The position numbers and the translations under genes are program-made. A stretch of DNA of 64,000 nucleotides, from contig NZ_JAMJWD020000001.1 of the NCBI RefSeq assembly GCF_023554255.2, positions 682,001 to 746,000 of the forward strand, read 5' to 3'. The DNA is from Phyllobacterium sp. 21LDTY02-6. Lineage in GTDB: Bacteria > Pseudomonadota > Alphaproteobacteria > Rhizobiales > Rhizobiaceae. The notes beneath the pieces are model-generated. The model was not told the origin of the DNA. It ran no database searches and saw only the letters and a program-made list of their open reading frames with translations. The number at the start of each line of letters is the position of its first letter. Positions within the stretch are counted from its first letter, which is position 1. Of this stretch, positions 6,729 through 60,729 are shown in pieces.

Positions 6729-7779
6729 AGACGATACACGGCGACTGGTGATCGTTACGGATGCCTGGCATCCGCAGGTCAATGGTGTTGTCAGGACATT
6801 GACCAAGGTGCGCGAGCTGATGGAGGCTCGCGGCTACGAAGTCACCATCATGTCGCCGGCGGATTATCCCTCGGTGCCTTGCCCGACCTATCCGGAGATA
6901 AGACTTGCAATGACGCTGCCCGGCGCGCTGAAGGCGCGTCTTGAGGCCATCCAGCCCGCCTATATCCACATAGCGACGGAGGGGCCGCTTGGTTTCATGG
7001 CCCGGCGCGCCTGCATGAAGAACAATTGGCGCTTCACGACCAGCTTCCACACGCGCTTTCCCGAATATCTGCGCCAGCGCCTTCCGGTTCCACTGTCGCT
7101 TTCCTACGGCCTGCTGCGTCGATTTCACAACTCGGCCCAATGTTGCCTGGTGCCGACGCAGTCGATCCACGATGAACTGTCGCAACGGGGCTTCAAGACG
7201 CTAAAAGTCTGGACGCGGGGCGTCGATCGCGCGCTGTTCAAGCCTGAACGCGGTGCCGACCTTGGGCTTCAGCGACCCGTCTTCCTCTGCGTGGGGCGGG
7301 TAGCGCCGGAAAAAAACCTTGAAGCCTTCCTCGACCTGGATCTGCCCGGCACAAAGCTGGTCGTTGGCGACGGCCCTGAACTTGAGTCGCTGCGGCGCAA
7401 ATATCCGAGCGTCGTCTTCGCAGGCAAGAAAGAGGGTGCGGAACTCGCCCATCACTACGCGGCATCGGACGTCTTCGTGTTTCCCAGCCGGACGGACACT
7501 TTCGGCCTTGTTCTGCTTGAGGCGATAGCTGCCGGATTGCCGGTCGCGGCCTATCCGGTGCCGGGACCCAAGGATGTCATAGCAGCGACGGGCGCGGGCA
7601 TATTGGCCGAGGATCTGAGCGTTGCCGCTCTGGAAGCCCTGGCGATGGGGCGCGTCGATCCCGAGAAAAGTCTGAATAAATTCAGCTGGGAAGCCTGCGC
7701 CGAAATATTTGAAAGCATATTGGCCTTTATCGGCGCCTCAAGGCCGCGCAATCTGTCCGACCAGGCCCAGAAACCTTAG
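6718..7779 (+). CDS. GT4-family glycosyltransferase
   Basis: A 353-residue GT-B fold transferase. It starts at the ATG overlapping the end of the phosphoesterase gene; residues upstream in the same frame are out-of-frame translation of that gene. The N-terminal VTDAWHPQVNGVVRT is the acceptor-domain start typical of the MgtA/SqdX-like GT4 group. Near the C-terminus VGRVAPEKNLEAF and PSRTDTFGLVLLEAIA give the nucleotide-sugar site and EX7E-type motif. Relatives transfer mannose, glucose or sulfoquinovose to lipids; the actual donor cannot be read. Pairing with the metallophosphoesterase suggests membrane glycolipid synthesis (inference). Confidence 0.85.
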   Translation: MQPEDDTRRLVIVTDAWHPQVNGVVRTLTKVRELMEARGYEVTIMSPADYPSVPCPTYPEIRLAMTLPGALKARLEAIQPAYIHIATEGPLGFMARRACMKNNWRFTTSFHTRFPEYLRQRLPVPLSLSYGLLRRFHNSAQCCLVPTQSIHDELSQRGFKTLKVWTRGVDRALFKPERGADLGLQRPVFLCVGRVAPEKNLEAFLDLDLPGTKLVVGDGPELESLRRKYPSVVFAGKKEGAELAHHYAASDVFVFPSRTDTFGLVLLEAIAAGLPVAAYPVPGPKDVIAATGAGILAEDLSVAALEALAMGRVDPEKSLNKFSWEACAEIFESILAFIGASRPRNLSDQAQKP

Positions 7780-7884
7780 GCCTCGCTGGATGGAGGTTTT
7801 CTAGGCAGCGGCGCGGTTTCGTGTTAGCGACGTAGGGCCGGGCTATTGATTCTACCGGCCTGTTTCACACCTGAAAGTCGATTG

Positions 7885-9099
7885 ATGACAGCCGCATTGG
7901 CGGATCCCAGCGTAGAAAAACCGTCGCGGTTCGAGCTTCGGATCGCGCTGATGTATTTCGCGATCTTCATGTCGACCGGGCTGCATCTGCCCTATTTTCC
8001 GCTCTGGCTCGAATATAGGGCGCTCACGCCCACCGAGATTTCGATCGTGCTGTCGATGCCGCTTTTCGTGCGCGTGGTCGCGGCTCCACTCGTATCGATG
8101 CTTGCGGACAAATCCAGTGACCGCGCCCATGTCCTGTCGGCGGCGGCGGTAATGGCGGCGCTTATCGCCGCGTTTTATTTCGTCCCTTTCGGTTTCGCTG
8201 GAATCCTTGCGGTTTCACTGCTGCTGTCCCCGCCCTGGACGTCGCAGATTCCTCTAGCCGACACGATCGCCCTGTCCGGCGTGCGCCGATACGGCATCGA
8301 TTTTGCGCGGATGCGGGTGTGGGGCTCGATTTCCTTCCTGCTCACCTCTTTCTTCGCGGGGATCATCATCCAGCGCATCGGCGAACACATCATCCCCTGG
8401 GCGCTGCTGGCGGCGTTGATCCTCGCCTGCGCGACAAGTTTTGCCGTGCCCCGAATCGGCAGGCCCCGCCGCATATCGCCGCTGTCGGACATAGACATAG
8501 CCAATGCAGGAAGGGCATTGCGCCGGCCCGCCTTCGTTACGTTCCTCATCGCGACCGGCATCACGCAGGCGAGCCATGCCTATGGCTACAGTTTTTCAGC
8601 CATCTACTGGAAGTCGATCGGCATCGAAGAGACGGTGATCGGCATATTCTGGTCCATATCGGTGGTCGCCGAAGTCATCATCTTCGCGACGTTCCGGCGG
8701 TTCTTCGGCAAGGTTCATCCGGCCAAGGTGCTGATGATCGGCTCTGCCGTCGCCATGTTCCGCTGGACCTTGTTCCCCCTGGTCGAGCCGCTCGGTCTCG
8801 GCCTAGGCGGGTTCCTGTTCTCGCAGTGCCTGCACTGCTTTTCCTTCGCATTGTCGTTTCTCGGAATGCAGAAGATGATCGCCCTAACCATTCCGGAGGA
8901 ACGGGGCGGCACCGCCCAGGGCCTGTCGACCTTCTTCGTCGGAACTTCGCTTGCGGCGGCGACGATGGCATCCGGGCCGCTTTATTCGGCGACAGGCATA
9001 AATGGCTTCTACGTGATGGTCGCCCTCGCTGCCATCGGCCTCGTTCTGGCGCTGGCCTCGTTGAAACTCGAGAGAGGCGAGCGGGCTGCCGCCGCCTAG
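7885..9099 (+). CDS. MFS transporter (HcaT/LacY-like, MFS_1_like)
   Basis: About 404 residues with roughly twelve hydrophobic segments across the whole length. The N-terminal segment contains YFAIFMSTGLHLPYFPLWL, a signature of the nucleoside/phenylpropionate/oligosaccharide permease branch, and MLADKSSDRAH is the cytoplasmic loop 2-3 motif. It probably imports a small organic solute with protons; the substrate is unknown. I place the start at 7885 (MTAALADP) rather than 7846 because the first helix begins soon after it and GAAAG lies upstream. The stop overlaps the stop of the convergent epimerase gene by 4 bases. Confidence 0.8.
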   Translation: MTAALADPSVEKPSRFELRIALMYFAIFMSTGLHLPYFPLWLEYRALTPTEISIVLSMPLFVRVVAAPLVSMLADKSSDRAHVLSAAAVMAALIAAFYFVPFGFAGILAVSLLLSPPWTSQIPLADTIALSGVRRYGIDFARMRVWGSISFLLTSFFAGIIIQRIGEHIIPWALLAALILACATSFAVPRIGRPRRISPLSDIDIANAGRALRRPAFVTFLIATGITQASHAYGYSFSAIYWKSIGIEETVIGIFWSISVVAEVIIFATFRRFFGKVHPAKVLMIGSAVAMFRWTLFPLVEPLGLGLGGFLFSQCLHCFSFALSFLGMQKMIALTIPEERGGTAQGLSTFFVGTSLAAATMASGPLYSATGINGFYVMVALAAIGLVLALASLKLERGERAAAA

Positions 9100-10079
9100 C
9101 CCCAGAGCACGGGCGAAGGCGGAGAAACGAGGCTGCCGGAAAATGTCAATCCCGGCTCCCGGTCCTTCTTCAGTATGAGCGGCCCGTCGAGATCCACATA
9201 ATCCGCGTCCTGAGCGACGAGCATTGCCGGTGCCATGGCCAGCGATGTGCCGACCATGCAGCCCACCATGATGCCAAATCCCAGGCGCCGGGCTTCCTGC
9301 TGCATTCGCAGCGCTTCCGTCAGGCCGCCGGTCTTGTCGAGCTTGATGTTTACATAATCATAGAGTCCGGCCAGTTGGTGCAGATCGTCCGCGGCATGGA
9401 CGCTTTCGTCCGCACAGATCGGCACAGGATGCGGTATCCGGCGCAGGATGGCATCTTGGCCGGCCGGCAACGGCTGTTCGACGAGTGCCACCCCGGCCTT
9501 GGCGCAAGCGAGGAGATTGGCGACGATATTATCGTCGTTCCAGCCCTCATTGGCGTCGATTATGATGCGGCTGGCAGGAGCGGCGGCTGCAACCGCGCTT
9601 ATGCGATCGGCATCGTCGTCGCCGCCGACCTTGACCTTGATCAGCGGCCGATGAGCGAATTTCGCCGTCGCGGCAGCCATGGTCTCCGCGTCGCCGAACG
9701 ACACGGTTACCGCCGTCGTCAGGTCCCGCAATTCACCGAGACCGAGTAATTCTGCGACACTGGTCCGGGCGCTCTTGGCTTCGAGGTCCCACAGGGCGCA
9801 ATCGACCGCATTGCGCGCCGCGCCAGCGGGAAGCAGCTTCGCCAGATCGTCGCGGTCCAGTCCTTGAACCAGCCGTTCGCGGATCGATTCGATCTGCTCG
9901 CAGACGCTATCGATACTTTCGCCGTAACGCGCATAGGGAACGCATTCACCCCGACCGGTTGCAGTTTCGGTGACGAGCCTGCAGATGACGACGGCGGCCT
10001 CGGTTTTCGAGCCTCGGGATATGGTGAACGTTCCGGCGATGGGCCATCTCTCCACCCCGATTTCAAGTATTGTTGACAT
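9096..10079 (-). CDS. Dipeptide (L-Ala-D/L-Glu) epimerase, enolase superfamily
   Basis: A 327-residue muconate-lactonizing subgroup enolase with every catalytic position present: KVKV (Lys148, Lys150), metal ligands in DANEGW (Asp175), EQPL (Glu201) and ADES (Asp224), and Lys249 in KLDKTGG. These match the L-Ala-D/L-Glu epimerase (YcjG/YkfB) layout; some relatives (DgcA) are instead N-acetyl-D-Glu racemases. The likely role is recycling of murein-derived peptides in the cytoplasm. The start at 10079 (MSTILEIGV) fits the first strand; the frame continues upstream into the promoter region. It is divergent from the lipid transport operon, with only 58 bases between start codons. Confidence 0.85.
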   Translation of the reverse strand: MSTILEIGVERWPIAGTFTISRGSKTEAAVVICRLVTETATGRGECVPYARYGESIDSVCEQIESIRERLVQGLDRDDLAKLLPAGAARNAVDCALWDLEAKSARTSVAELLGLGELRDLTTAVTVSFGDAETMAAATAKFAHRPLIKVKVGGDDDADRISAVAAAAPASRIIIDANEGWNDDNIVANLLACAKAGVALVEQPLPAGQDAILRRIPHPVPICADESVHAADDLHQLAGLYDYVNIKLDKTGGLTEALRMQQEARRLGFGIMVGCMVGTSLAMAPAMLVAQDADYVDLDGPLILKKDREPGLTFSGSLVSPPSPVLWG

Positions 10080-10137
10080 TATTGAGTGCCTTAATTGTTC
10101 AAGTGACACGCACCGAAAGACTCGATATGTGTGAGGA

Positions 10138-11313
10138 ATGTTGACCGATAGAGCAAGCAAATCAAGTGCTTCTACCGCAGCGCCGCCTCAGGTTGAGTTC
10201 AGTGAGGACGGCGGTCAGGCCCTGATCGCTCTATCGGGTGCCTGGACGACGCGGAACGTCAGGCGTGTGGACGATACCATGCGGCAAATCGGCGAGAATC
10301 GCAGCTTTTCCAGCGCAACCATCGATCTTTCCGGCGTTGAACTGCTTGATACGGCCGGTACCTGGCTGGTGGAGCGGCTGCGGACCACGCTTGAGAAGGC
10401 AGGCAAGCAAGTCGCCCTGAAGGGCCAGGCACCGGGTTGGGCGGCATTGTTCGAAGCCGTAGGCGAGGCAGCCTCTGCTCCGGACGAGGCTGTGACCGTC
10501 GATCGGCCGTCGATGCTGACCCGCATGTTTGCCGGCATCGGGCGCGGGGTCTATGCTTTCGGCGACGACTTCCTGAAGGCAATGCACATTCTTGGCGCCA
10601 CCGTGCGTGGCGCGCAGATGAAGGGCAGCGGGCGCACGGGCATACGGCCGGCCGCAATCGTCCATCAGATCGACAGCATGGGGATCGGCGCCATCCCGGT
10701 CGTCGTACTCATGTCGACGATCATCGGCGCCATCATCGCGCAGCAGGGTGCGTTCCAGCTCCGCTATTTCGGCGCCGAGATTTTTGTCGTCGATCTCGTC
10801 GGCATCCTCGTCCTGCGTGAAATCGGCGTGTTGTTGACGGCAATCATGATCGCCGGCCGCTCGGGAAGCGCCATCACGGCCGAAATCGGCTCCATGAAGA
10901 TGCGGGAAGAAACCGATGCGCTGACGGTCATCGGCCTCAATCCCGTCGGCGTGCTGGTGTTCCCCCGTCTGGTGGCGCTGGTGATCTCGCTGCCACTATT
11001 GACCATAATTGCGGACTTTGCCGCATTGGTCGGCGCGATCATCATCACCTGGGCCTATTCCGGCATTTCCCCCGATGCCTTCATTCAGCGGCTCCGCGAT
11101 GCGGTGGATCTCTCGAGCTATCTCGCGGGGCTGATCAAGGCGCCGTTCATGGCAATGATCATAGGCGTAATGGCCTCGGTCGAGGGCATGAAGGTAGGCG
11201 GCAGCGCCGAATCCCTCGGACAGCGCGTGACGGCCTCCGTGGTGAAATCGATCTTCGTGGTAATCGTGGTCGATGGCTTTTTCGCCATCTTCTACGCGTC
11301 TATCAATTTCTGA
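10138..11313 (+). CDS. MlaE-type lipid ABC transporter permease with N-terminal STAS domain
   Basis: Permease of an MCE-type lipid transporter at the inner membrane. The 391-residue protein has an N-terminal STAS (MlaB-like) domain at about 15-110 (SATIDLSGVELLDTAGTWLVE) fused to a MlaE permease domain from about 140 on, with the conserved IGAIPVVVLMS and LREIGVLLTAIMIAGRSGS segments and about five membrane helices. In E. coli MlaB is a separate protein, so this is a natural fusion; fused forms are known in the family. The start is ATG 10138 or the adjacent TTG 10141, since GAGGA sits directly before them. It is first gene of a four-gene operon with MlaF, MlaD and a lipoprotein. Confidence 0.92.
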   Translation: MLTDRASKSSASTAAPPQVEFSEDGGQALIALSGAWTTRNVRRVDDTMRQIGENRSFSSATIDLSGVELLDTAGTWLVERLRTTLEKAGKQVALKGQAPGWAALFEAVGEAASAPDEAVTVDRPSMLTRMFAGIGRGVYAFGDDFLKAMHILGATVRGAQMKGSGRTGIRPAAIVHQIDSMGIGAIPVVVLMSTIIGAIIAQQGAFQLRYFGAEIFVVDLVGILVLREIGVLLTAIMIAGRSGSAITAEIGSMKMREETDALTVIGLNPVGVLVFPRLVALVISLPLLTIIADFAALVGAIIITWAYSGISPDAFIQRLRDAVDLSSYLAGLIKAPFMAMIIGVMASVEGMKVGGSAESLGQRVTASVVKSIFVVIVVDGFFAIFYASINF

Positions 11314-11322
11314 GCGAGCGGT

Positions 11323-12198
11323 ATGAACCCGAAACAGCAGAACCCGGATGGAGACACGACGACCAGGGAGGTAATCCTCTCGGTCAAGGATGTCAGCGTC
11401 TCGTTCGGCCGGGCGCAAATCCTTGATCACCTCGATCTCGACGTCTATCGCGGTGAAATCCTCGGCTTTGTCGGCGCTTCCGGCACGGGAAAATCGGTGC
11501 TGATGCGGACGATCCTCGGGTTGAACCAGAAGCAGAACGGCAGCATCAGCATATTCGGCCACGACATAGATCATGCCAGCGAGCAGGAAAAACTCGCCGT
11601 GGACATGCGCATGGGTGTGCTTTTCCAGCACGGCGCCCTGTTTTCATCCCTCACCGTACTCGAGAACATTCAGGTACCGATGCGGGAATATCTGGACATC
11701 CCGCCGCGCTTGATGGACGAACTTGCCCGGCTGAAGATCGACCTGGTGGGATTGAAGCCGGATACGGCCGACAAATTCCCGTCGGAACTTTCAGGCGGCA
11801 TGATCAAGCGCGCGGCGCTGGCCCGGGCTTTGTCGCTGGATCCGGAAATCGTCTTCCTCGACGAGCCGACCTCGGGGCTCGATCCGATCGGTGCCGCGGA
11901 ATTCGACGAACTTATCGCGAATTTGCGCGATACGATGGGCCTGACGGTCTACATGGTCACGCATGATCTGGACAGTCTGTTCGCGGTATGCGACCGAATC
12001 GCGGTATTGGGCAAGAAAAGGGTGCTCGTGGAAGGAACGATCGACGATATGCTGGCGTTTGACGATCCTTGGGTTAAGGAATATTTCCAGGGAAAGCGAG
12101 CCCGCCAGATCGTGCCGGCGGGCGAGAATTTGCGTCGGTCCGAACGCGCGGCCACAACAGAAACGGCACCAGCGGGGCTGCACGGGCAGGCGAAATAA
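11323..12198 (+). CDS. MlaF-type lipid ABC transporter ATPase
   Basis: The 291-residue ATPase that energises the MlaE permease. It has Walker A GASGTGKS, Q-loop FQHGALFSSLTVLEN, signature ELSGGMIKRAALARAL, Walker B IVFLDEPTSGLDP and an H-loop in YMVTHDLDS. FQHGALFSSLTV is the variant characteristic of the MlaF/MCE ATPase group. The C-terminal 40 residues after YFQGKRARQI are a low-complexity tail. Nine bases separate it from mlaE and three from mlaD, consistent with one transcript. Confidence 0.93.
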   Translation: MNPKQQNPDGDTTTREVILSVKDVSVSFGRAQILDHLDLDVYRGEILGFVGASGTGKSVLMRTILGLNQKQNGSISIFGHDIDHASEQEKLAVDMRMGVLFQHGALFSSLTVLENIQVPMREYLDIPPRLMDELARLKIDLVGLKPDTADKFPSELSGGMIKRAALARALSLDPEIVFLDEPTSGLDPIGAAEFDELIANLRDTMGLTVYMVTHDLDSLFAVCDRIAVLGKKRVLVEGTIDDMLAFDDPWVKEYFQGKRARQIVPAGENLRRSERAATTETAPAGLHGQAK

Positions 12199-12201
12199 TC
12201 G

Positions 12202-13194
12202 ATGGAAACCAAGGCAAACTACGTTCTGGTCGGAATTTTCACGCTGGTCGTCTGTCTGTTCGCGTTCGGATTCGTCTATTGGATCGCCCGTTATGGCGAC
12301 AAGACGGAGACCGCAACGCTGGAAATCCGGATTCTTGGCTCCGTCACGGGTCTCGCCGATGGCAGCCAGGTGCTCTTCAACGGCATCAAGGTTGGCACCA
12401 TCCGCCGCTTGTCGATCGACGACAAGAACCCGGATGCCGTCATCGCTCAGGCGGAAGTGAACGCATCGACGCCGATAACCCGCTCTACCCAGGCCACATT
12501 GGGCTTTGCCGGCCTCACGGGGCAGGCCTTCATCGAATTGAAGGGCGGCAAGCTCTACGAGCCGAAGCTTCTGGAAGAGGCGGCGAAGGAAGATGTCGTC
12601 GCGCGCATCGATGCCGATCCTTCAGTCGTCAACAATTTGCTGCAGAAGGCGCAAACCATCCTGGAGCGTGTCGAGACGGCGGTTGGTTCGATCGAGAGTT
12701 TCATCACCGAGGTAAAGGGACCGCTGGTCGATACTGTCAACAATACGAAGAAATTCACCGATGCCCTCGCCAAGAATTCGGACGTCATCGACAAGTTCAG
12801 CCGCAGCGCGGAGGATGTGCAGGTCCTCGTGCGCGAAGCCCGGGAGATGATGACGCGGCTCAATGCGGCTTCGACCCGCGTCGATGGTGTATTGGCCAAG
12901 CTCGATCTGCAGCTTTCCGATCAGGATGGCAGCATCGTTCGGGAAGCGCGCGCCACGTTGCAATCCTATCGCAGCGTTGCCGACAATCTGAATACGCGGC
13001 TTGGGCCGATTGCCGACAATCTCAACCGGTTTTCGGGGCAGGGCCTGCGCGACGTGCAGTCATTGGTCAATGAAAGCCGGCAATCCGTGCAGCGGATCGA
13101 ACGCGCCATCAGCGATCTCGAAAAGAATCCGCAGAGGGTGATTTTCGGGGGCGGCGGCAATGTGCCGGAATATGATGGCCGCACGCGGCGTTGA
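12202..13194 (+). CDS. MCE-domain lipid transport protein (MlaD-like)
   Basis: Membrane-anchored periplasmic lipid shuttle of the Mla/MCE system. The protein has 330 residues: a single N-terminal membrane helix (about 7-28), one MCE domain (about 38-115, LFNGIKVGTIRRLSI) and a long predicted alpha-helical tail rich in small and charged residues (about 150-320). Because the tail is much longer than in E. coli MlaD, it resembles PqiB/Mce proteins whose helices form a tunnel. It follows the ATPase after three bases and precedes the lipoprotein gene. Confidence 0.92.
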   Translation: METKANYVLVGIFTLVVCLFAFGFVYWIARYGDKTETATLEIRILGSVTGLADGSQVLFNGIKVGTIRRLSIDDKNPDAVIAQAEVNASTPITRSTQATLGFAGLTGQAFIELKGGKLYEPKLLEEAAKEDVVARIDADPSVVNNLLQKAQTILERVETAVGSIESFITEVKGPLVDTVNNTKKFTDALAKNSDVIDKFSRSAEDVQVLVREAREMMTRLNAASTRVDGVLAKLDLQLSDQDGSIVREARATLQSYRSVADNLNTRLGPIADNLNRFSGQGLRDVQSLVNESRQSVQRIERAISDLEKNPQRVIFGGGGNVPEYDGRTRR

Positions 13195-55741: not shown

Positions 55742-55771
55742 GGGCGGGCGGCATTGCTGCCCGCCCTATTT
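55742..55771 (+). terminator. Terminator of the sugar ABC operon
   Basis: GGGCGGGC (55742-55749) pairs with GCCCGCCC (55759-55766) around a 9-base loop, then TATTT. It lies between the binding-protein stop (55735) and the end of treY-like gene on the other strand (55766). Confidence 0.65.
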
Positions 55772-58372
55772 CGATACGAGCGTGACCGTCGAAAAATCGC
55801 GCATCAGATTGGCGACCTTGAGTTTGGCCCTGGTCGTTATCGACGCATCGGTGATGACGTTCCGCATTTCGATGCCGGTCAGCCGATCAGGTATCGCAAG
55901 CGCCGTGTTCTGCCAGTCCGGCAGCGGCATGAACGGGTCCTGATATTTGGACACCGCATCGAAGGGCAGGCGCGGCACGGCGACGATGCAATGCCGCTTG
56001 CCCTTGCTGCGCGCAAAGGCGATGACATGATCGGCCATCGGGCCGCTGACCTCCAGCGGCGTATAGGAACCTTCAAGGAACAGCGAGCGCTCCCGTCGCC
56101 GCAATTCGAGATGCTTGCCCAGAATTCGTTGCTTTATCGCGCCGGAATGCCAATCGGATAGAAGATTGGACAGGGGAGAGTCGTTGACGTAGCGCAGCCT
56201 GTCGCGAAGCGCGGATGGCTCAAGGTCGATCGGTGCAACGACGTTCGACAGAGCAAGATCCCAGCTTTCAGAGCCGATGTGGACGAGCGGGATGCCCGGC
56301 GTCGTGGTTTTCAGGACGGTCTGGGAGAAACTGTTGATGGCGCCGGCCACGCGGAACGGACGCGTCTTCTCGGCGAAATCCGCAAGGAAACTGCGGTCGT
56401 GAAACAGGTTCTGCACATAGCGCGTCAGCGCCTGCTCGTAAGGCTTGTTGATCTCGGTCCAGAATGCCTCCTTGCGCGCCTCCCTTCCGGCCCGGATGAT
56501 GAACTGCGAGAGTGTGTTCTCCAGAGTATCGAGGCCGGCCTGATCGTCCAGATGCAAGGTCGCCGGCCAGATCGCCATCAAGGTCTGGTAGATCAGCCAT
56601 TCGGTTTCCGGCCCGGGCGCCGGCTTGTTCTCCATGCGGATGATGCTGTCCGCATGCCTGGAGCGCCAATCCGACAGGTTCTCGGCCCACAAGGAGGGTG
56701 CCTCGGACAGGGCCAGCAGGCGCATGCGCGCATCTTCGCCGAATTTCGTCGCGTAGGAGAAACTGGTGGCGACCATGCCATGGGGCGCTGCCGCCGCCTT
56801 GTTGGCCATCTGCCGGTGGAAAGCCCCGACGGGATCGTCGGCAGTCGCCATGCGCAATGTCATGTCGTCCACTGCGAGCGGGCCACGGTCGTAGCGGTAG
56901 GATTCCTCCACCGCCTGCGCCATCACGGCGGCGGAAAGCTGCTGGAAGCGCCTGTCGAACGCCTGAACCAGTTCAGGCGATGCCGTTTTCCATTCGACAC
57001 GGCCGGCCTGGAAAATGCTTGCATAATCCGGCTTGTGCTTCGGCGAGGAATAGGTGCGGAAAACCGGCATTTCAGCGATGGCGGCACTGATCGCCTGCCG
57101 GACGGCCATGCCCTTGCCCTTCTTTGTAGCGGCTGCGAGCAGAAGATCGCCCAGTTCGCGCAGCTCGGCTCCGAATTTCTTGTGAAGTATGGCCGACTTG
57201 GCGTGGCGGTAATGAAAGTGGTTATCGTCGACATTGCCGATGCTCTGGCCGTAGAGCCGGTCCATTTCGTCCAGTTTCGCATGATCCACGAGCACATTGG
57301 CAACAGCCGATATGAATTCATAACCGGCGGTTCCCTGGACCGGCCAGTGGGGTGTGTGTTCCTCGCCGGCCAGGAGAATCTTGTCGGTGACGATATAGGC
57401 TGAATCGCCGGCAAGACGCCGCAGCTCTTCCAGGTAGTTGTCCGGATTGCCCAGGCCATCGATCTGGTTCACCCGAAAACCCGAAACGGCACTGTTCTCC
57501 AGAAGGTCGATGGCGACGCGATGGAAATCCGAAAATGCTGCCGGTTCACCCATGTCGATGCCGACGGATATGGCGGAATCATAGGAGTGGCGGTAGTTCA
57601 ACGCCGCCGGAATGTCGGATTCGGCGATCAGTTTCCAATGTTGCTGAGCGAGCAGGTCGTCGCGGGCGGCGCGATCCTGCAGCATGCCGTTCAAATGGCC
57701 GGCAAGCCGGAGGCGGGATGCTATCGGGGCATCATGGTAGGCCTTGCCGAGACCAAGACGAAAGTCCTCGGCTGCTTCCGGCTTGGCAGCCGCTGCCAGA
57801 TCGCGAAATGCATCCGCCAGCGCGTCGCTCAGATCGCCCAGCGCCGTTGCGTAGGAGCCCGGCGCCAATGGGACGAAACCTTCGGGATAGGTCAATCCGA
57901 TCGTATTCGTTGCGGAATCGAATTTGATCGTGATGTTGCCCGCCTCGATCTCCTCGATCAGCGGACGCTCAAGCGCCGGAATGGCAAGCGTCTTGCGCCA
58001 GTCGATGTCGAAATAGCTGGCGAAAGGGCTCTTCGGTCCCCATTCCAGGACGGAAAACCACCATTTATTGCTATGTTTTGCGGGCGTCTGGTTCGGATTG
58101 ATGTCGATGATGAGCGGAATGCCCGCTGCGCGAAGCGAATTGTCCAGCAATGCGAATCCCGGTTCGCCGCCCGCCTGTTCGTCCAGCCGCGTCGGGTCGA
58201 AGGAGCGTCGGCCGCTGCCGGCATCGGCCGTATCGAATGCCGAGGAAATACTCAGGCTGTCTATGCCGAGGTCCGTGAGATAAGGAACTGCCTTCGCCAC
58301 GTCGCGGAACGTTATTCCGTTCCTCAGGAGCAATCGGTAGGCTGAGGTCGGCATATGCTGGGTAGGGGCCAT
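55766..58372 (-). CDS. TreY-like (malto-oligosyltrehalose synthase) protein with lost catalytic residues
   Basis: An 868-residue GH13-type protein clearly homologous to TreY along its length: an N-terminal barrel start (YRLLLRNGITFRDVAKAVPYL), WWFSVLEWGPKSPFASYFDIDW, then HWPVQGTAGYEF, MPVFRTYSS and a C-terminal domain. TreY converts the reducing end of maltooligosaccharides to trehalose linkage. Here the nucleophile region reads GFRVNQIDGLGNP (Asn302-Gln303 where the family has Asp-His), the acid/base region reads VTDKIL (Asp330 where Glu is usual), and the THDTKR-type region reads SYATKF (Tyr540-Ala541 where His-Asp is usual). Classic activity is therefore improbable. The frame is intact. 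ATG 58372 lies 23 bases after the otsA stop, so both share a transcript. No treZ is nearby. Confidence 0.87.
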   Translation of the reverse strand: MAPTQHMPTSAYRLLLRNGITFRDVAKAVPYLTDLGIDSLSISSAFDTADAGSGRRSFDPTRLDEQAGGEPGFALLDNSLRAAGIPLIIDINPNQTPAKHSNKWWFSVLEWGPKSPFASYFDIDWRKTLAIPALERPLIEEIEAGNITIKFDSATNTIGLTYPEGFVPLAPGSYATALGDLSDALADAFRDLAAAAKPEAAEDFRLGLGKAYHDAPIASRLRLAGHLNGMLQDRAARDDLLAQQHWKLIAESDIPAALNYRHSYDSAISVGIDMGEPAAFSDFHRVAIDLLENSAVSGFRVNQIDGLGNPDNYLEELRRLAGDSAYIVTDKILLAGEEHTPHWPVQGTAGYEFISAVANVLVDHAKLDEMDRLYGQSIGNVDDNHFHYRHAKSAILHKKFGAELRELGDLLLAAATKKGKGMAVRQAISAAIAEMPVFRTYSSPKHKPDYASIFQAGRVEWKTASPELVQAFDRRFQQLSAAVMAQAVEESYRYDRGPLAVDDMTLRMATADDPVGAFHRQMANKAAAAPHGMVATSFSYATKFGEDARMRLLALSEAPSLWAENLSDWRSRHADSIIRMENKPAPGPETEWLIYQTLMAIWPATLHLDDQAGLDTLENTLSQFIIRAGREARKEAFWTEINKPYEQALTRYVQNLFHDRSFLADFAEKTRPFRVAGAINSFSQTVLKTTTPGIPLVHIGSESWDLALSNVVAPIDLEPSALRDRLRYVNDSPLSNLLSDWHSGAIKQRILGKHLELRRRERSLFLEGSYTPLEVSGPMADHVIAFARSKGKRHCIVAVPRLPFDAVSKYQDPFMPLPDWQNTALAIPDRLTGIEMRNVITDASITTRAKLKVANLMRDFSTVTLVSK

Positions 58373-58395
58373 GCTGTTACTTCGTCTCCATTGGC

Positions 58396-59820
58396 TTAGA
58401 CGTTGGGATGGGCTTCGGCGGGCGCCAGCCTCCCGGACGATTGCGCCTGTTGCTCGGCATGACCGAGCAGGGCGTTCAGATATTTCCGCTGCCACCACTG
58501 CGCATCATGGTCGGTCACCCGTCGCAAGAGTTTGCGGTGGCGCAGCTGGCGTTCTTCCAGGGGCATGGTCGCCGCCTTGTGGATGGCTTCCGCGACTTCC
58601 TGTATGTTGTAGGGATTGACCAGAATGGCTTCCCGCAGTTCCTCGGCAGCACCGGCGAACTTCGAAAGGATGAGAATGCCCGGGTCGCTGTCGTCCTGCG
58701 CCGCGACATATTCCTTGGCGACGAGGTTCATGCCGTCGCGCAGCGGCGTGATCAGGCCGATCAGGCTCGATTTGAACAATGGAGCGAGCTTCGTGCGGGG
58801 GATGCTACGGTTGATATACTGGATCGGAGCCCAATTGAAATCGGCGAACTTGCCGTTCACCGCCCCTGCAAGCTGTTCGAGTTCGGCTCTGATGTCGCCA
58901 TAGGCCGATACGTCCTCGCGGGACGGCGAGGCTATCTGGAGATATTCCGCATGGCCCTGATATTCAGGGTATAGATCAAGAAACTTGCGGAATGCCTTGA
59001 TTCGATGCGGCAATCCCTTGGAATAATCAAGCCGGTCGGCCGAGATAAGCTGAAAGCGGCGCAGGACCTTGCGGCGCATTCGTTCCAGTTCCACAGCATC
59101 GTCCGGCTTGCTCGACGTCTGGGCGAATTGCTTGACGTCGATGCCGATAGGATAATGCCCGATATGCACCGTACGCTCCCTTACGCGCACCAGCTCCGGC
59201 GAAATGATGTCGGCGTCCGAATGTTCTTCCAGGTAGCGATGGAAATTATGCACGTCATTCAGCGTCTGGAAGCCGACCAGATCGTATTGCAGCAGGCAAT
59301 ATCGCAACCAGGGATGGCGCGGTACGGCCGAAAACACATCCACCGGCGGGAAGGGGATGTGCAGGAAGAAACCGATGCGGTTGTCGATCCCGAGCTTGCG
59401 GAGCTCGGCCGCCATCGGCATCAGATGATAGTCGTGGATCCAGATGACGTCGTCGTTCTCGAGCTGCGGCGCGAGTAGTTTGGCGAAACGTTCATTGACT
59501 GCGGAATATCGATCGACGAATTCCGTCCGGTAATCCATGAGGTCCAGCCGGTTATGGAATGCCGGCCACAGGACCTTGTTGGAGAAGCCCAGATAATATT
59601 GTTCATGCTCGGCATTGGTCAACGGCGTGGTCAATATCGAGATGTTGCCATGCTCCGAACGGCGCAGGTCTCCGACCGCGTCCTGGACGTTGCCGTCCCA
59701 GCCCATCCACAATCCGCCCTGAGAGCGGAGCGCATCGATTATTCCTACTGTTAATCCGCCTGCCTGATTTTTCTTCGCAAGATTTGCTGTCCGGTTTGAA
59801 ACAACAACAAGCCGTCCCAT
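58396..59820 (-). CDS. otsA: Alpha,alpha-trehalose-phosphate synthase
   Basis: Makes trehalose-6-phosphate from UDP-glucose and glucose-6-phosphate. The 474-residue GT20 enzyme keeps every key position: N-terminal RLVVVSNR, AGGL donor loop, WIHDYHLM, SADRLDYSKGLPHRI (Arg and Lys for the UDP diphosphate) and TPLRDGMNLVAKEYVAAQ. Trehalose is the osmotic, desiccation and heat protectant of rhizobia. The C-terminal 15 residues are Ala/Gln-rich and unconserved. The treY-like gene follows 23 bases later on the same strand, and otsB is divergent. A GGAAC-N16-GGTT element upstream resembles an EcfG promoter. Confidence 0.95.
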   Translation of the reverse strand: MGRLVVVSNRTANLAKKNQAGGLTVGIIDALRSQGGLWMGWDGNVQDAVGDLRRSEHGNISILTTPLTNAEHEQYYLGFSNKVLWPAFHNRLDLMDYRTEFVDRYSAVNERFAKLLAPQLENDDVIWIHDYHLMPMAAELRKLGIDNRIGFFLHIPFPPVDVFSAVPRHPWLRYCLLQYDLVGFQTLNDVHNFHRYLEEHSDADIISPELVRVRERTVHIGHYPIGIDVKQFAQTSSKPDDAVELERMRRKVLRRFQLISADRLDYSKGLPHRIKAFRKFLDLYPEYQGHAEYLQIASPSREDVSAYGDIRAELEQLAGAVNGKFADFNWAPIQYINRSIPRTKLAPLFKSSLIGLITPLRDGMNLVAKEYVAAQDDSDPGILILSKFAGAAEELREAILVNPYNIQEVAEAIHKAATMPLEERQLRHRKLLRRVTDHDAQWWQRKYLNALLGHAEQQAQSSGRLAPAEAHPNV

Positions 59821-59979: not shown

Positions 59980-60729
59980 ATGACCCTAGAAACTGTCCAC
60001 CCGCTTCCCCTCGACCTCAGGGAATGGGCGCTCTTCATCGATATCGATGGGACACTCATAGACCTTGCCCCGACGCCCTCCGCCATCATCATCCCGAAAG
60101 AGCTGCCGCATCAGCTCGCCGTCGTCCAGCGCCGGGCCGGTGGTGCCATGGCGCTCGTCACGGGACGGGCCATCAGCGCCGTCGACGAGATGTTCCACCC
60201 GAACAGGCTGCCGGTCGCCGGAATGCACGGCGCTGAAATGCGCGACGGAGCAGGGACCGTCACATACAAGTCCGTGGAACCTGCGGATCTCGATCCCGCC
60301 CGCCTCGAACTCGATCTTCTTGCCAAGCGCTGGCCCGGCGTGATCCTGGAAGACAAGGGCCGGGCCCTCGCCATCCACTACAGGCAGGCGCCGGAGGCAG
60401 AGCCGGCCATCCACAACGCACTCGGCGGTATCCTGAAGGGGCTCGGCGACAGCTGGAAGTGCCAGGAGGGCAAGATGGTGGTGGAGATCCACCCGGCCGC
60501 GGCCAACAAGGGCGATGCGGTTTCGACCTTCATGCAGAGCCCGCCCTATCTTGGCCGCAAACCCTTCGTCATCGGCGACGATCTGACGGATGAAACCATG
60601 TTCCGCATCGCCAATGACGCCGGGGGGCGCTCGGTCGGCGTCGGCAATCCGCCTTTCGACAGCATTGCGCAATACCGCATCGGATCGGCGGATGAGGTGC
60701 GAGACTGGATCGGCCGCCTTGCCGCCTGA
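59980..60729 (+). CDS. otsB: Trehalose-phosphatase
   Basis: Removes phosphate from trehalose-6-phosphate. The 249-residue HAD-superfamily protein has FIDIDGTLIDLAP (motif I with nucleophile and acid aspartates), LVTGRAISAVDEMF (motif II), the cap domain, NKGDAV (motif III lysine region) and VIGDDLTDETMF (motif IV). ATG 59980 is preferred over the overlapping in-frame TTG 59977. It is divergent from otsA with about 160 bases between start codons, unlike the common otsBA operon, so synthase and phosphatase could be regulated separately. Confidence 0.94.
   Translation: MTLETVHPLPLDLREWALFIDIDGTLIDLAPTPSAIIIPKELPHQLAVVQRRAGGAMALVTGRAISAVDEMFHPNRLPVAGMHGAEMRDGAGTVTYKSVEPADLDPARLELDLLAKRWPGVILEDKGRALAIHYRQAPEAEPAIHNALGGILKGLGDSWKCQEGKMVVEIHPAAANKGDAVSTFMQSPPYLGRKPFVIGDDLTDETMFRIANDAGGRSVGVGNPPFDSIAQYRIGSADEVRDWIGRLAA

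Follow-up and report, generated by a model that had tools for sequence, protein, structure and literature searches.

Downstream of the trehalose-6-phosphate synthase gene otsA, Phyllobacterium sp. 21LDTY02-6 carries a gene for an 868-amino-acid homologue of malto-oligosyltrehalose synthase (TreY) in which the catalytic triad has been replaced. We refer to this gene as pseudo-treY, and to the 64,000-nucleotide stretch of contig NZ_JAMJWD020000001.1 that contains it (positions 682,001 to 746,000) as the window. Pseudo-treY occupies 55766..58372 on the minus strand as one open frame of 868 codons, with its ATG at 58372 and its stop codon ending at 55766. An earlier sequence-only reading had described this uninterrupted frame without naming a strand; minus-strand translation confirms it, and the plus-strand reading of 55766-58372 is interrupted by stops. 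The same reading had placed the gene 23 bases behind otsA, and this distance is correct: otsA (58396..59820, minus strand) ends at 58396, leaving a 23-bp spacer (58373..58395, minus strand), and a possible ribosome-binding site, GGAG, lies 13 bases ahead of the pseudo-treY ATG. The trehalose-6-phosphate phosphatase gene otsB diverges from otsA (59980..60729, plus strand; TIGR00685, 142.5 bits, cut-off 68.05).

We assigned pseudo-treY from its open frame, a profile match, an AlphaFold2 model and matches in the PDB. TIGR02401, the NCBIfam profile for malto-oligosyltrehalose synthase, matches residues 8-866 with 565.1 bits, above its cut-off of 498.65. The Pfam alpha-amylase domain stays below cut-off (14.8 vs 22 bits). 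Profile searches of the window's genome brought up neither a second TreY nor a TreZ above the cut-offs, in keeping with the earlier remark that no treZ lies nearby.

GH13 retaining catalysis requires nucleophile and stabiliser carboxylates. To read these positions, we used a 44-row alignment of the window protein with 43 homologues from its family and genus. The window copy and 12 Phyllobacterium relatives form a pseudo-TreY clade of 13 members; the canonical comparison set holds 32 loci, namely the 30 best-scoring of 128 family matches and the genus loci L067 and L068. The canonical nucleophile Asp and the His that follows it (region II) correspond to Asn302-Gln303, encoded at 57464..57469 on the minus strand. 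The acid/base Glu of region III corresponds to Asp330 (57383..57385, minus strand), and the His-Asp of region IV, whose Asp is the transition-state stabiliser, to Tyr540-Ala541 (56750..56755, minus strand). Position 302 is Asn in 13/13 clade members and Asp in all 30 canonical rows readable there, and position 330 is Asp in 13/13 clade members and Glu in 31 canonical rows. Positions 540-541 read [YH][AT] in 13/13 clade members, the third catalytic position being Ala or Thr in every copy, and HD in 31 canonical rows. Pairwise alignment with the solved TreY chain 6lcu matches the same segments (rvnqid/rvdhpd, vtdkil/veKii and syatkf/thdtkr). Neither alignment places catalytic carboxylates at other positions, and on both we rejected a misalignment that hides a catalytic triad. 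The substitutions listed in the sequence-only reading (Asn302, Gln303, Asp330, Tyr540 and Ala541) thus stand where it put them, opposite the canonical D-H, E and H-D, with the nuance that Asp330 keeps a carboxylate.

Within the canonical set, 31 of 32 loci are readable at all three catalytic positions and all of these are intact; L008, absent from the BLAST list behind the alignment, was read separately (RIDH, VEKI, HDTK), and L016 is partial. The treY at L016 (genome G227) carries one in-frame TAA. Taking this set together with the 34 further TreY-like loci of the scan described below, the triad is intact in 62 of 66, the remaining 4 being unreadable. The substitutions, by comparison, recur in every otsA-linked copy (13/13), and because they are seen in 12 further genomes, chance or sequencing error is ruled out as their source. 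By the established GH13 mechanism, a protein with neither nucleophile nor stabiliser should not run the reaction. Homology makes pseudo-TreY a TreY-family protein, whereas its defining residues set it apart from the TreY enzymes and argue against TreY activity.

Replacement extends into the sugar site. We counted the non-gap columns at which at least 29 of 30 canonical TreY agree (L016, with its in-frame stop and partial frame, excluded). Within sugar-site motifs 21 of 35 such columns are replaced in the clade, and outside these motifs 46 of 150 (Fisher p 0.0017, with motif borders chosen after viewing the alignment). The VDPDNRR motif is lost at 7/7 columns, STGYD is altered at 4/5, and the region I His is missing from most clade copies. 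Invariance within the clade covers 211 columns. N302, D330, A349, S539, F544 and M550 are fixed, clade-specific residues; R300, D305, K331, E337, W343, G347, G350 and Y351 are unchanged in clade and canonical TreY alike in the 44-row alignment. AlphaFold2 modelled pseudo-TreY as a single chain with a pLDDT of 87.1 and a pTM of 0.88 (44 sequences; the fold alignment, A2, includes 11 of 13 members of the clade). In Foldseek, TreY entries take the first five places among the PDB matches to this model, with Arthrobacter TreY leading, and the match to 6lcu has an E-value of 1.8e-39 and TM-scores of 0.76 (query) and 0.87 (target). From the confident model, its TreY matches and the replaced residues, we conclude that the scaffold is, as modelled, retained and the catalytic residues are gone.

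None of the 13 pseudo-treY copies has a stop inside its frame. Among five close species, the ratio of non-synonymous to synonymous substitution (dN/dS, NG86) for pseudo-treY is 0.061-0.080 in 10/10 measurable pairs, alongside 0.030-0.081 for otsA and 0.069-0.102 for otsB in the same comparison; a few spurious codons are possible, as some of these frames (among them L059 otsA and the pseudo-treY frames of L056, L062 and L063) begin ahead of the probable start. Setting the dS limit at 0.9 left the pairs within the five-species set as the only measurable ones, and the window copy contributed to none of them. Pseudo-treY is under purifying selection in this sub-clade. A decaying gene, with dN/dS near 1, is rejected there by these values, which lie far from 1, and by the open frames. 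The sequence-only reading had taken the gene for a selected pseudoenzyme, and triad loss in 13/13 copies together with low dN/dS supports that view. As to its role, that reading had named regulation, scaffolding or another substrate as possibilities. Retention under selection and catalytic-site loss are both well supported.

The protein has changed faster than OtsA and about as fast as OtsB, with mean pairwise distances of 0.43, 0.23 and 0.40 for pseudo-TreY, OtsA and OtsB. A quick tree, built without L016, L084, L086, L099, L108 and L109, recovers the clade as one branch (SH-aLRT 100) on a stem of 1.2 changes per column. It places the clade on the side that holds 24/30 canonical family rows and joins it to L082 by two long branches; this join was flagged as possibly false, and some clade rows have an odd letter make-up, so only monophyly was used. 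L082 itself (7674-10649, Rhizobium sp. L1K21) is a very divergent TreY with GDTGYG, HDTKFSED, a branch of 1.4 and an intact triad. Three main groups are common to the pseudo-TreY and OtsA trees.

Within the genus, pseudo-treY tracks otsA. We found it in 13 of 20 Phyllobacterium genomes searched and otsA in 14 of 20 (13 of 19 by search, plus G212 from locus reading), which places pseudo-treY in 13/14 otsA-bearing genomes and in 0/6 without otsA. In 13/13 copies pseudo-treY and otsA are neighbours on one strand, and otsB diverges from otsA. Only otsB, otsA and pseudo-treY are common to the 19-kb stretches of all 12 relatives (frames of at least 120 amino acids); six relatives have a wider neighbourhood in common, sharing being counted from four loci up. 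In five other species the otsA and pseudo-treY frames overlap by 4 bp, taking the upstream-most TTG or GTG start. Two carriers, G400 and G396, also have an intact TreY (L067, 8093-10699; L068, 8203-10776) and a TreZ over cut-off, and these are the only 2 of 19 Phyllobacterium genomes with a TreZ at that level. In the other 11 of 13 carriers we found no canonical TreY, and no TreZ over cut-off in those that the TreZ search covered (all but G212).

Beyond Phyllobacterium, a profile search of 394 family genomes gave 128 matches over the TreY cut-off. Five Phyllobacterium matches score 551-628 bits and the others at least 844, except for cut or split matches in G174, G356 and G288; the 30 best-scoring of the 128 were read residue by residue. 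Scanning contigs with the single pseudo-TreY protein confirmed no relative. Run instead with alignment A1, which contains 9 clade members out of the 13, and with two peptide patterns, the scan returned 44 loci: 10 of the clade and 34 other TreY-like loci. The 10 came from nine Phyllobacterium and one 'Rhizobiales bacterium', and these named loci (L070-L079) are taken to be 10 of the same 12 relatives, counted once. Among the 34, 31 are readable and intact, L099 is in pieces, and L108 and L109 are unreadable fragments. At L099 (2397-5091, Methyloceanibacter marginalis) treY is split across three open frames.

We also searched for a DNA pattern encoding [YH][AT]TKxGEDAR. It matched 5 of 388 genomes in the family set, all Phyllobacterium; in the order set (397 genomes) and the class set (385 genomes), which included no other Phyllobacterium, it matched the window's genome alone. 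Since the pattern recognises every one of the 13 clade loci, it is sensitive for the clade, but pseudo-TreYs with other substitutions would escape it. Within that limit, pattern searches found no pseudo-TreY outside Phyllobacterium. A look at 28 loci, with some 1.5 kb of flanking sequence, likewise showed no TreY close to otsA in other genera.

Window OtsA matches solved OtsA chains (phmmer, best E 1.6e-127), and TIGR02400 scores it at 545.2 bits, slightly below the cut-off of 564.85. In other Rhizobiaceae OtsA, 121 columns are conserved in at least 21 of 22 sequences; at 104 of them all 14 Phyllobacterium OtsA carry the same residue, fixed. Genus-fixed changes affect only 4 columns, and we attach no meaning to them. 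The blocks NR, GGL, DYH, RLDYSKG and RDGMNLVAKE, which we take to be those of the active site, are kept. The OtsA tree gives the Phyllobacterium proteins a long stem, 1.02 changes per column.

Pseudo-treY has been preserved, and no genome searched has it without otsA; the simplest role for its product would therefore be that of a non-catalytic OtsA partner. We propose that a TreY paralogue kept its whole fold, lost the triad together with much of the sugar site and became fixed behind otsA in Phyllobacterium as a pseudoenzyme. Pseudo-TreY would then be an activator, stabiliser or ligand-sensing subunit of OtsA that adjusts trehalose-6-phosphate synthesis through it, its old cleft perhaps sensing a glucan or sugar. 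We hold with considerable confidence that the protein lacks TreY activity but is selected. That it works through OtsA is close to an even call: gene order, co-occurrence and the analogies of Thermoproteus tenax TPSP-GT and the yeast complexes point to a partnership, with presumed co-transcription, physical contact with OtsA and some regulatory effect. For the proposal as a whole, we put the balance just on the favourable side. We consider unlikely a more specific form, in which the dead glucan cleft senses alpha-glucan or trehalose and pseudo-TreY, within a complex with OtsA, sets trehalose flux and thereby couples osmoprotection to glycogen status.

Several observations weigh against a non-catalytic partnership. 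At the acid/base position the change from Glu to Asp shortens the carboxylate and does not remove it. Pseudo-TreY shows no special co-evolution with OtsA, as pairwise distances correlate at r 0.958 for this pair, at 0.981 for pseudo-TreY and OtsB and at 0.961 for OtsA and OtsB. Finally, one genome, G399, has otsBA without pseudo-treY (L130 on G399:C5; otsA 11604..10195, minus strand; otsB 11754..12536, plus strand), and we found no TreY-like sequence either in the 17 kb read there or in a genome-wide search. The partner, then, is not always needed. Support for where G399 falls among the OtsA sequences is weak in their tree (92/72), so either loss of the gene or its late gain may apply.

Other explanations account for parts of this evidence. 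Pseudo-TreY might be a carbohydrate-binding or sensor protein, its dead cleft binding alpha-glucan, maltooligosaccharide, trehalose or trehalose-6-phosphate and reporting glycogen or trehalose status without direct contact with OtsA. The TreY fold, retained as modelled, and the residues from R300 to Y351 that are invariant across clade and canonical TreY speak for it; the invariance of N302 and D330 within the clade is what one would expect if the site now binds something. Yet STGYD and VDPDNRR are heavily altered and most copies lack the region I His, and we regard a free-standing sensor as rather unlikely. GH13 folds are known to change specificity, and a rebuilt site using, for example, Asp330 and clade-specific residues might carry out a new reaction on another sugar. 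The fixed set of new residues and the strong constraint in the five species would fit a repurposed enzyme, but the nucleophile and stabiliser positions that GH13 retaining catalysis requires are non-carboxylate in 13/13 copies, and no further gene accompanies the cassette in all 12 relatives; we find this improbable.

Weaker still is the case for residual TreY activity with Asp330 as acid/base. The retained carboxylate and the TIGR02401 score above cut-off speak for it, but the nucleophile Asp has become Asn and the stabiliser Asp has become Ala or Thr. Moreover, a TreZ over cut-off is confined to two of 19 genus genomes (not the window's) that have an intact TreY as well, and we judge this activity very improbable. 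A decaying pseudogene could explain the fast evolution, seen in the long stem and in a mean distance well above that of OtsA, and the absence of the gene from G399. Against decay stand the uninterrupted frames in 13/13 copies, the invariant columns and the dN/dS values, which refute it for the five-species sub-clade; it is the explanation to which we give least credence.

As pseudo-TreY passes the curated NCBI cut-off, it is likely annotated as malto-oligosyltrehalose synthase, and with such an annotation pathway reconstructions for Phyllobacterium would wrongly credit half of the TreY-TreZ route. The gene is present in P. brassicacearum STM196 (L075), which offers an already studied strain for testing its role. 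STM196 promotes plant growth and raises Arabidopsis survival under severe water deficit, and the passages of that paper on this effect draw no connection between it and pseudo-treY (PMC4166611).

Pseudo-TreY resembles TreY (GH13; TIGR02401; PDB 6lcu, 6lcv, 5zcr, 3hje and 1iv8) in its full-length homology, predicted fold and many structural motifs. It differs from that enzyme in its replaced triad and much of its sugar site, its linkage to otsA and the absence, in the window's genome, of any TreZ that reaches cut-off. Non-catalytic GH13 proteins serve as partner subunits elsewhere, as in the plant isoamylase ISA2 and the SLC3 heavy chains 4F2hc and rBAT, which likewise have GH13 folds without catalysis but belong to other GH13 subfamilies and have other partners. 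Non-catalytic companions of trehalose synthases are also known; a dead TreY in such a role is absent from the open-access matches listed, among whose titles and abstract openings no paper describes an inactive TreY, or a TreY beside OtsA in Phyllobacterium. In PMC11046441 a table legend flags archaeal sets in which one isoform is inactive; the passages of that paper and of PMC10886315 shed no light on the present case. In yeast, according to passages of PMC3634074, Tps1 and Tps2 operate with Tps3 and Tsl1, homologues of pathway enzymes in regulatory or structural roles that serve the synthase; that complex is eukaryotic and its regulatory subunits are homologues of TPS-TPP (trehalose-6-phosphate synthase-phosphatase). 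The same source describes T. tenax TPSP, whose synthase activity depends on an operon-encoded GT protein that activates it by complex formation (PMC3634074). There the pair is a putative glycosyltransferase and a TPS-TPP fusion, whereas here it is a GH13 pseudoenzyme and a separate OtsA, with interaction only proposed. Pseudo-TreY offers a clean natural case in which an enzyme of the TreY-TreZ pathway has apparently been turned into a non-catalytic companion of an enzyme of the OtsA-OtsB pathway.
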